Origin: Halalkalicoccus subterraneus
GTDB taxonomy: Archaea > Halobacteriota > Halobacteria > Halobacteriales > Halalkalicoccaceae
DNA length: 36,715 nucleotides
Direction of reading: 5' to 3'
Assembly: GCF_003697815.1 (NCBI RefSeq)
Contig: NZ_RDQG01000017.1
Coordinates: 1 to 36,715, forward strand
Shown here: positions 26,655-29,136 of the stretch, in pieces
Layout of the letters: each line of letters opens with the position of its first letter
Numbering within the stretch: position 1 is the stretch's first letter
Notes under the pieces: model-generated
What the model was told of the DNA's origin: nothing
Seen by the model: the letters and a program-made list of their open reading frames with translations, nothing else
Database searches by the model: none
Position numbers and translations under genes: made by a program

Positions 26655-27434
26655 TTACGGCAGTCGGGCACCGACCGCCCGGTAGGCCGGTTCGTCCAAC
26701 CCCGCGCGTCCGAGGCGGTCGTCGTGGGCGTCGCTGCCGCCGGTAGGGACCAGGTCGTTCCGTTCGACGGCCCCTTCCACGAGCGCGGTGTCGACGGGCC
26801 GGCCGTAAGGGTACCACCGTTCGACCGCATCGAGGCGGTCGGTCAGCGAGAGGGCGGCCTCGGGATCGGGATACCGAAACGGGTGTGCGAGGCCGACGAG
26901 CGCGCACGACTCCCGGAGCGCCGAGAGTCCCCGATCGAACCCCGGGATCTCCCGCGGGACGTAACACGGACAGTTCGCGCCGATCAGTTCGGCGAACGCC
27001 CCCTCGTAATCGAACCCCGATCCGGGATGGGCCGCGATGGCGCGAGCGACGTGTGGCCGACCCAGCCCGGCAACGGGTTCGAGGTCGAGTTCGATTCCTA
27101 ACTCGTTTTCGACCCGGCGGATGATCTCGCGTCCGCGCTCGATCCGGCTGGTCTGGACCCACTCGACGAGTTCGCTCAACGCGTTCGTTTCCCGCACGCC
27201 GTATCCAAGCAGGTCGACTGCGCCCTCCGGGGAGTCGACCCGAAGTTCGATCCCGCGGACGATCCGAACCCCGCCGCGATCGCTGACGGGGGCATCGAGC
27301 TCCGGATGAGGGCGGTCGTGGTCGGTGATCGCGACGACCTGCACGCCGGCGGTCCGCGCGGCGACGGGGACTTCCGGGAGGGTCATCGTGCCGTCGGAAG
27401 CGGTCGTATGAACGTGCAGATCCGCATACACCAT
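26655..27434 (-). CDS. PHP-domain metal-dependent phosphoesterase
   Basis: A 259-residue PHP protein (numbering from the ATG at 27434). The four metal motifs are HVHTTASDG (about 7-15), ITDHD (about 37-41), the Glu in RGIELRVD, and GSDAHDD near the C-terminus. Members hydrolyse 3'-5' oligonucleotides, nucleoside bisphosphates or histidinol phosphate; this short form is like the YciV/RNase AM group. A CATATAAT element on the minus strand (27471-27478) lies 40 bases upstream, giving a leader of about 13 bases that contains GGTGG. GTG at 27440 is an alternative start. Confidence 0.87.
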   Translation of the reverse strand: MVYADLHVHTTASDGTMTLPEVPVAARTAGVQVVAITDHDRPHPELDAPVSDRGGVRIVRGIELRVDSPEGAVDLLGYGVRETNALSELVEWVQTSRIERGREIIRRVENELGIELDLEPVAGLGRPHVARAIAAHPGSGFDYEGAFAELIGANCPCYVPREIPGFDRGLSALRESCALVGLAHPFRYPDPEAALSLTDRLDAVERWYPYGRPVDTALVEGAVERNDLVPTGGSDAHDDRLGRAGLDEPAYRAVGARLP

Positions 27435-27470
27435 GTCCACCCTATGATCCGACCCCCGAAGTCGTTGTGC

Positions 27471-27549
27471 ATTATATGCCTAGAAGATACCGCCTCTACG
27501 ATTATACTGGCAAAGGTGCCCTAGGATCATTATGGACAATCGTTATAAT
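27471..27549. promoter_or_regulatory. divergent promoter region PHP / DUF5789-like gene
   Basis: Minus strand CATATAAT at 27471-27478 for the PHP gene. Plus strand TTATAAT at 27543-27549, 29 bases before the ATG at 27575. GATTATA (near 27497) and TATAATC (27544-27550) form a 7-bp inverted repeat across the gap. The region 27435-27574 contains no other ORF I can support. Confidence 0.5.
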
Positions 27550-27574
27550 CATCGTCCGCTCAGATAGGGGTACG

Positions 27575-27859
27575 ATGTGTTACACTAGCACCAACGGGCT
27601 GTTCGAAGACCACAGTTATCCGACGACCACCCGCGATCTGATCGACCGATACGGCGAGCAGACCCTCGAACTGGCCGGCGGCTCCCAGACGATCGGTGAG
27701 GTCCTGAGCGTGGCCGGCGAGGAGACGTTCGAGAGCGCCGAGGAGGCTCGATACGCCGTCTACGCGGGCATGGGTAGCGAGGCGATCGGCCGCGAGGGCT
27801 ACACCGACCGTGATCCCGAACCGCCCGGAACCAACGGTCACGCCCCGGTCTCCTTCTAG
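27575..27859 (+). CDS. haloarchaeal small protein, DUF5789-like
   Basis: A 94-residue acidic protein. The pattern YPTTTRDLIDRYGEQTLELA, then GSQTIGEVL, EETFESAEEARYAVY and AIGREGYTDRDPEPPG matches what I recall of haloarchaeal DUF5789 proteins: a short alpha/beta domain with a predicted helix in which Glu-Ala-rich residues alternate. Function unknown. The start at 27575 has a TATA box 29 bases upstream. It shares a CTAG double stop with the next gene. Confidence 0.7.
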   Translation: MCYTSTNGLFEDHSYPTTTRDLIDRYGEQTLELAGGSQTIGEVLSVAGEETFESAEEARYAVYAGMGSEAIGREGYTDRDPEPPGTNGHAPVSF

Positions 27860-28860
27860 ACCCACTCGACCGTTTCGTCGAGCCCGACCGGAAGCGATCC
27901 CGTACTGTAGGCCTCGATCCGCCCCGACGGACGGGCCCGAAAGACCATTGCGGGGCGGTGGCCGACCGCGGGCTGTTCGCCACTGACTTGGGCCCATTCG
28001 TCGTCGCGAAACGACGAGCAGTCGACGAACAGGGTGATCCCGCCGCCGTGTTCCGCGAGCTGACCCGACGTTTTCGTTTCGGCCGTCTCCTTGACCGCCG
28101 CGACCGCCGTGTTCGCCGCCCGACGCGTCGGCGGCAGGGGGCGTGTCACCTCGACGAGCGTACCGGTGCCGTCCTTCTCGGCCCGAAAGTCGATCGAGTG
28201 GCCGGTCGTCACCTCGATCTCGGGGGTGATCTCGTAGCCGGCGTCGGTCAGGAGATGCGCGACGGTGAACTCGCTCATCGTCGCGCTCATACGGACGGGG
28301 TCGAGCCGGTCGCTCGTGCCGAGTTTGCTCGCCATGACGTACCGGTACTCGTCGAGGACGCCCGTGTGGAGGATCGACTCGTACCAGCCACAGGCCTCCC
28401 CGCGGGTGCTATCGGGGAAGCCGACGGCGTGCTCGCGGAAGAACCCGCGGGTCGTCTCCCGGCCGTCCTTCGAGCAGAAAACGGGCAGGAAGAACCACGA
28501 GAGATGCGGGTAGGCGGCGAGCCACGGTTCGGCCTCGTGGAGTTCGGCCAGCAGTTCGCGCTGAGCCCAGCGTGCGACGTGGTAGGGGACCTCCTCGAAG
28601 GTGTACTTCTCGGTTCGCCAGAGCGTACTCGGGGTCTGGGTGTTACCCATCCAGTAGGCCTCCTCGGCGTCCCAGATGAACAGGGCCGTATCGCCGTTGT
28701 CCATGTCGAAGCGTCGGGCGTCGTAGTGCCCGCCCGGGCTGAACCAGGGGGTCGAACAGCGCGCGCCGAGCGCGTCGTCGAGCGGGTGAAACAGGTCGCG
28801 ATGGAGGCGGTCTTCGGACCACGATTGGGGAGAGTGTCGAAAGCGGAGCGGACGAGCCAC
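27856..28860 (-). CDS. haloarchaeal protein (DUF5784-like) with a nuclease-like core
   Basis: A 334-residue protein resembling the haloarchaea-specific DUF5784 proteins. The N-terminal two thirds are rich in Trp and Tyr and have no motif I know. Residues 197-280 run as helix, strand, SIDFRA (222-227), LVEVTR (235-240), a helix with VAAVKETAETK and a strand ITLFVDCS (275-282). This order, Asp224 and Glu237 included, resembles a PD-(D/E)xK nuclease core with Thr at the Lys position. Activity is not proven. The start is uncertain: GTG 28860 gives the typical ARPLRF beginning; TTG at 28944 would add 28 residues. Confidence 0.7.
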   Translation of the reverse strand: MARPLRFRHSPQSWSEDRLHRDLFHPLDDALGARCSTPWFSPGGHYDARRFDMDNGDTALFIWDAEEAYWMGNTQTPSTLWRTEKYTFEEVPYHVARWAQRELLAELHEAEPWLAAYPHLSWFFLPVFCSKDGRETTRGFFREHAVGFPDSTRGEACGWYESILHTGVLDEYRYVMASKLGTSDRLDPVRMSATMSEFTVAHLLTDAGYEITPEIEVTTGHSIDFRAEKDGTGTLVEVTRPLPPTRRAANTAVAAVKETAETKTSGQLAEHGGGITLFVDCSSFRDDEWAQVSGEQPAVGHRPAMVFRARPSGRIEAYSTGSLPVGLDETVEWV

Positions 28861-28962
28861 ACCACCAGTGAGGAGTCGAACGCTGTTGAGGGTTCCGGCC
28901 CGTCGGTGTGGGTAGCCGTTACATTGATGACCCGGGGTTTCCAAGAGTGAGTGTGGTTCGCA

Positions 28963-29136
28963 ATGTCAATGGGTGCCTACGACGACGACGAACACGAGCG
29001 CCGAGAGAAGAAGAGCACGACGGTCGATACGGACTTCGATGACGACCGCTCGGAGTACCGCGGCACACTCGAGTTCGATTCGGGCGAGTCGGCGGAGGAC
29101 CTCCTCGATCAGTTCCGGCGGATCAAATCGAGCTAG
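28963..29136 (+). CDS. haloarchaeal small acidic protein, DUF5786-like
   Basis: A 57-residue, highly charged protein: MSMGAYDDDEHERREKKST, then DTDFDDDR and ESAEDLLDQFRRIKSS at the end. It matches my memory of haloarchaeal DUF5786, a small protein conserved across the class without known function. The N-terminal half is probably disordered and the end a helix. Three candidate ATG/GTG starts lie close together; the ATG at 28963 gives the family-typical MSMGAYD. It is divergent from the DUF5784-like gene and shares a CTAG double stop with the membrane gene downstream. Confidence 0.75.
   Translation: MSMGAYDDDEHERREKKSTTVDTDFDDDRSEYRGTLEFDSGESAEDLLDQFRRIKSS

Follow-up and report, generated by a model that had tools for sequence, protein, structure and literature searches.

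DUF5784, a core protein family of Halobacteria, as a putative PD-(D/E)xK nuclease without the signature lysine

Families that lack the signature lysine of motif III have been filed in the PD-(D/E)xK superfamily (PMC1913061). In one of them, DUF1626, motif III has a threonine and the lysine has probably shifted to the next helix, like in DUF506 and DUF790, according to the passages of this source on such families. For Hjc, the same source lists E9 as motif I, D33 as motif II, E46 and K48 as motif III, and D61 as motif IV, and mentions that variations exist. In Bax1, E275, D305, and E318 are found at the nuclease site, and the mutation D305A lowered one cleavage activity, the interpretation being complicated by a second active site (PMC7293015). 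Here we compare these systems with DUF5784, a protein family encoded in a 36,715-nt stretch of the Halalkalicoccus subterraneus contig NZ_RDQG01000017.1 (the whole stretch is called the window in the following, and residue numbers are those of its DUF5784 protein). Judged by its predicted structure and its conserved residues, DUF5784 belongs to the core genome and is probably a nuclease of the PD-(D/E)xK type that depends on metal ions. Within the open-licence literature we found neither papers on DUF5784 or PF19096 nor an assignment of the family to a nuclease fold. The fold itself and the change from lysine to threonine are already known, and it is the assignment of DUF5784 to this fold that is new with respect to this literature.

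Fold of the C-terminal domain

The DUF5784 gene is located on the minus strand, as are all features of the protein described below, and runs from position 28860 (GTG start codon) to 27856 (stop codon), encoding 334 amino acids. The Pfam match to PF19096 (DUF5784) covers residues 2-326 with an E-value of 4.3e-171. An AlphaFold2 model of the protein was built with 58 relatives and is of high confidence (predicted local distance difference test, pLDDT, 93.4; predicted template modelling score, pTM, 0.90). The model consists of an N-terminal alpha/beta lobe (residues 1-90, 28591-28860), a helical middle part (residues 93-182, 28315-28584), and a C-terminal domain (residues 186-334 and the stop codon, 27856-28305). 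The C-terminal domain starts with core helix A (residues 188-206, 28243-28299), followed by a strand at residues 210-216, core strand 2 (residues 222-229, SIDFRAEK, 28174-28197), core strand 3 (residues 232-239, ending with LVEVT, 28144-28167), core helix B at the motif IV place (residues 252-265, 28066-28107), core strand 4 (residues 275-280, ITLFVD, 28021-28038), a helix at residues 286-295, and strands at residues 304-309 and 315-320. Residues 188-320 thus have the order helix, three strands, helix, strand, helix, and two strands, which is that of the PD-(D/E)xK core. An earlier note, made from the letters of the DNA, had proposed a DUF5784-like, haloarchaea-specific family with this core and had quoted the order helix, strand, SIDFRA, LVEVTR, helix, ITLFVDCS; the family is confirmed by the Pfam match, the order is borne out by the modelled elements, and strands 2 and 3 were re-read from the DNA.

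Fold comparison leads to the same superfamily. The best row in VIA-align is 4g6v, the CdiA-CT nuclease domain, with a Z-score of 9.2 over 128 residues at 3.1 A, which is 2.8 above the next row. The rows that follow for the C-terminal part are PaqCI (6.4), XisH (6.2), SfsA (5.7), and McrBC chain G (5.6), and further down AF1548 (5.5), Bax1 (5.0), and Hjc (4.9). The 50 rows are divided into 11 on the N-terminal part and 39 on the C-terminal part. We take 35 of these 39 to be PD-(D/E)xK proteins, two are acetyl-CoA carboxylase, and AF2093 and Upx are left unplaced; by the same presumed classification none of the 50 rows of the same run on the N-terminal half belongs to the superfamily. In a Foldseek search against the PDB the top row is again 4g6v (E-value 1e-3), the first rows are mostly nucleases of the PD-(D/E)xK fold, and lower rows include the R2 endonuclease, an archaeal repair endonuclease, Cdn1, AF1548, SfsA, Bax1, and Hjc. 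A viral structure library returned several restriction endonuclease, PD-(D/E)XK, and VRR-NUC names among mostly uncharacterized rows, none of them with an E-value below 0.001. Given the confident model and a comparison led by 4g6v, residues 188-320 almost certainly adopt the PD-(D/E)xK (restriction-endonuclease-like) fold, as the earlier note had suggested.

Putative active site and N-terminal half

Invariance was counted in the 58-member alignment and then in 76 distinct members. Identical in all 76 are Glu197, Glu214, Gly220, Asp224, Glu237, Pro241, Arg247, Lys263, Asp280 at the end of strand 4, and the adjacent Cys281. According to model and alignment, Glu197 (28270-28272), Asp224 (28189-28191), and Glu237 (28150-28152) occupy the places of motifs I, II, and III, and the spacing between Asp224 and Glu237 is 13 in the window protein. 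Many, though not all, members of the superfamily carry an acid of motif I on helix A, and in DUF5784 this acid is Glu197. Asp224 and Glu237 had been named, with the right numbering, before any relatives were aligned, and both are invariant in 58/58 and then in 76/76 members. Because residues 186-334 contain 22 acids, of which just five do not vary (197, 214, 224, 237, and 280), the chance of finding both pre-named acids among them is about 0.04 (5/22 x 4/21), or 0.006 if Glu197 is included, which was added afterwards.

The usual lysine place in motif III, which has the form E-x-T in strand 3, is taken by Thr239 (28144-28146), as stated in the earlier note; threonine is found in 74 members and alanine in the other two. 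DUF5784 therefore fails the strict signature, but not a filing at the level of the fold, because PMC1913061 places lysine-less families in the superfamily. A lysine and a glutamine are conserved at Lys263 on helix B (28072-28074, 76/76) and at Gln267 (28060-28062, 75/76), and Arg240 is likewise present in 75 of the 76. Ala255, Thr259, Lys263, and Gln267 follow each other every four residues along helix B and just past its end, and all are conserved. Lys263, as a migrated lysine, is a candidate substitute for the lost signature lysine, and Arg247 in the loop preceding helix B (28120-28122) is an equal candidate.

If the domain is active, Glu197, Asp224, and Glu237 would hold one or two magnesium or manganese ions and the water attacking the phosphodiester bond. 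The part of the missing lysine would be taken by an invariant basic residue at another place, either Lys263 of helix B or Arg247 of the loop leading to this helix, and the N-terminal lobe together with the helical middle part would grip the substrate. The first guess for the substrate would be DNA with a structural feature, as it occurs in repair or recombination, and the second would be structured RNA or a DNA-RNA hybrid; DNA is favoured over RNA little better than even.

The N-terminal half retains its secondary structure when modelled alone (pLDDT 93.0). In the 58 members 32 of its 185 residues are invariant, compared to 21 of 149 in the nuclease domain, and it is therefore at least as constrained. 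The invariant residues include W70, G72-N73-T74, T76-P77, W81, T83, and K85 in the lobe, and F124-L-P126, S130-K131, G133, K179, and G181-T182 in the helical middle part. The lobe weakly resembles the TATA-binding protein (TBP)-like lobe of RnlA (residues 1-81, VIA Z-score 6.8 over 77 residues at 2.9 A) and, with its first 81-90 residues, the N-terminal domain of AdoMetDC/spermine synthase (Z-score 6.7); both values are below 8, the level of a clear match in this tool. A comparison with the haloarchaeal TBP profile showed no similarity (P 0.36), Pfam gave no TBP match, and the Pfam search of the N-terminal part gave no match to an enzyme family. A substrate-gripping lobe is attractive nevertheless because RnlA and RNase HIII combine a nuclease with a TBP-like lobe, a module capable of binding nucleic acid duplexes (PMC7221094, PMC3710099). 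It could thus be imagined, as a speculation that we consider rather unlikely in its full form, that in DUF5784 a lysine-relocated PD-(D/E)xK domain is connected by a helical part with a TBP-like, duplex-gripping lobe, and that the protein acts on DNA-RNA hybrids or distorted duplexes in the general maintenance of genome or RNA in Halobacteria. To our knowledge an architecture of this kind has not been described.

Distribution, neighbourhood, and alternative explanations

DUF5784 is a core gene of the haloarchaea and not a mobile one. A profile search found it above the curated cut-off in 290 of 292 Halobacteria genomes, nearly always with a single match (the genomes G089 and G162 have two), and the genome of the window has one copy. 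A phylum-wide draw of 392 genomes contained 80 with a match. By the genome labels, 81 of the 392 are from the same order as the window, and none of the remaining 311 has a match. There is no relative among viral contigs or phage records, and the sole plasmid record with DUF5784 is a 532-kb replicon of Halocatena salina. Within the searched genomes and records the family is therefore haloarchaea-specific, as had been proposed. A mobile or defence gene was considered and rejected because PADLOC gave no match for the protein, viral relatives are missing, and just one plasmid record was found. A gene of 290 of 292 Halobacteria genomes that is labelled "unknown function" gains, with the assignment to this fold, a testable putative active site, and Haloferax volcanii, in which a control search found DUF5784, offers a tractable laboratory host.

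The start codons of the 76 distinct genes are GTG in 72, ATG in three, and TTG in one, and a TA step is often found about ten bases upstream of the start among the 40 listed of these genes. GTG start and TA step together may indicate a leaderless transcript with a weak start that has been kept. In the window, a DUF5789 gene (27467-27859, plus strand) lies tail to tail with DUF5784, with a 4-base overlap of the stop regions. At the other side, about 100 bases away, lies a divergently oriented DUF5786 gene (28951-29136, plus strand), whose product is small and acidic. A PHP-domain gene (26655-27440, minus strand) matches 3',5'-nucleoside bisphosphate phosphatase (5.6e-20) and RNase RNM (6.7e-17), both below the cut-offs. 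In 36 loci the neighbours of DUF5784 are DUF5786 (24), DUF7530 (21), NmrA (20), DUF5789 (20), and PHP (17). In a set of 13 loci, made up of L089 and 12 without the common context, the neighbours had no informative gene in common, and most of their clusters were shadow frames. Deriving a function from the neighbours was rejected because DUF5786 is multi-copy, with two to three matches per genome in 12/12 genomes including both genomes without DUF5784, and because DUF7530 adjoins DUF5786 far from DUF5784 in the genomes G058 and G136. The neighbourhood is taken as inherited order and not as a functional link.

Taken by itself, the sequence gives weak support for the nuclease assignment. The catalytic domain of Mrr (Mrr_cat) reaches an E-value of 0.077 for the window protein and is matched below threshold by four of the 58 members (best 0.005), NurA is matched by two of the 58, and YraN (0.18) and a PHROG endonuclease (0.12) appear as well, while unrelated families reach like E-values in single members. 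Profile comparisons with hhalign gave P-values of 0.0087 for Mrr (a profile from 28 of 30 loci), 0.15 for Bax1, 0.20 for Hjc, and 0.31 for PDDEXK_10; the controls were eight neighbour-gene profiles with 0.12-0.74, two of them thin (one and two relatives), and TBP with 0.06. A sequence link to Hjc, Bax1, PDDEXK_10, or TBP was therefore rejected as being at the control level. Apart from Mrr, only a preselected DUF4143-like set stands out (0.0005), a value that is biased and has little weight because the set was found by a pattern of the window protein itself. Presumably of the DUF4143 type are the clostridial ATPases of the loci L018-L025, in which a C-terminal stretch is 33-39% identical to DUF5784 from residue 186 to 238/246; in the ATPase of L019 (5158-6339, plus strand) the octapeptide around strand 2 recurs unchanged.

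Several observations weigh against a nuclease. No nuclease family of Pfam, NCBIfam, PHROG, or PADLOC is found above cut-off, sequence searches of the PDB gave no meaningful match, Foldseek against the PDB returned nothing below an E-value of 0.001, and the profiles of Hjc, Bax1, and PDDEXK_10 score no better than the nine unrelated controls (0.06-0.74). The signature lysine is absent, and Lys263 comes late on helix B, perhaps at a large distance from the acids. The neighbouring genes contain no clue to a function. In addition, the near-complete, single-contig 2.7-Mb Halobacteria genomes G002 and G129 live without DUF5784; an alignment search with E-values up to 1 found nothing in them, which by itself shows little, but the same kind of search gave the 290 positives. 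The case for a nuclease is built on the structure and on the invariance of the acids.

The loss of the lysine could also mark a loss of cleavage, with the fold, and perhaps the metal, being kept for binding of nucleic acids or for a structural role with a partner. Such a catalytically dead derivative is favoured by the threonine or alanine in every one of the 76 members, and the 32 invariant residues in 1-185 are outside the site, so that the constraint may well be on binding or folding. However, a dead site would not need three acids that are invariant in 76/76 members. Moreover, lysine-less and lysine-relocated families are predicted to be active, and Bax1 and R2 have been assayed (PMC1913061, PMC7293015, PMC10499050, as far as these sources treat such sites). 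We therefore regard a dead derivative as unlikely. The invariant acids together with Lys263 and Arg247 favour an active enzyme over the nucleic-acid-binding derivative, and, given the fold, activity is likely. It is improbable that the fold serves a different enzyme, whose substrate would be a nucleotide or some further phosphoester and not a polymer, with the N-terminal half having its own active site: the many invariant residues of this half (32/185) and the bisphosphate phosphatase match of the neighbouring PHP gene (5.6e-20, below cut-off) would fit, but the N-terminal part matches no enzyme family and the PHP gene is found in just 17 of the 36 loci. That the fold call is wrong and the alpha/beta arrangement a product of chance could be argued from the Foldseek E-values and the sub-threshold sequence matches, but is hardly conceivable in view of a Z-score of 9.2 with a gap of 2.8, the dominance of one superfamily in the C-terminal list, and the position of the acids, which coincides with motifs I, II, and III.

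Comparison with known nucleases

The best structural match, the CdiA-CT nuclease domain, has 16% identity to DUF5784 and is a toxin domain, in contrast to the core gene considered here. In RnlA, to which the N-terminal lobe is compared, the catalytic domain is described as HEPN and not as PD-(D/E)xK. Mrr_cat (PF04471) is the best unselected sequence relative, its best E-value of 0.005 not reaching the curated cut-off, but the Mrr sequences examined carry (E/Q)xK. Hjc (PF01870) shares with DUF5784 the core, the places of the acids, and the spacing of 13 (33-46; PMC1913061), with a Z-score of 4.9, but has the lysine and a profile P-value of 0.20. A role of DUF5784 as the Hjc resolvase was rejected because a separate Hjc is encoded in 39 of 39 haloarchaeal genomes searched. 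Mrr_cat is separate in 37 of 39, the genome of the window carries its own Bax1 gene, and a separate Bax1 is found in five of seven genomes of the same order in the draw; DUF5784 is therefore no stand-in for any of them. If active, it would be a haloarchaeal core nuclease outside the known set, whose members Hjc, Bax1, and Mrr-type enzymes are separate in most or many genomes.

Further likenesses are to enzymes in which the lysine is missing or located elsewhere. The endonuclease of the R2 retrotransposon has a D-D spacing of 13 (996-1009) and its catalytic lysine, Lys1026, on a helix (PMC10499050); it is among the first Foldseek rows, but has a VIA Z-score of only 4.7-4.9 and is part of a reverse transcriptase protein. 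Bax1 is DUF790 (PF05626), the archaeal repair nuclease partner of XPB. Like DUF5784 it has no ExK lysine and has the acids E, D, and E with a D-E spacing of 13 (305-318; PMC7293015), its VIA Z-score is 5.0, and Bax1 of the haloarchaeal locus L137 has K-x3-Q-L after motif III at the same spacing as DUF5784. It differs in its N-terminal domains, as far as they are treated in PMC7293015, its profile P-value of 0.15 is at the level of the controls, and PF05626 has no match in the window protein or the 58 members. PDDEXK_10 (PF07788), the DUF1626 family, differs in its profile (P 0.31), in its mostly coiled-coil N-terminal region without a lobe, in the lysine that the relatives examined retain, and in its occurrence in 12 of 148 phylum genomes, with none of the order of the window among the matches listed. 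However, as DUF1626 is characterized in PMC1913061, it has the same alpha-beta3-alpha-beta-alpha-beta core, often a threonine at the motif III lysine, and basic residues shifted to the helix of motif IV, as proposed for DUF5784. DUF5784 adds one more family without the signature lysine, which should help to understand how this fold cuts in its absence.
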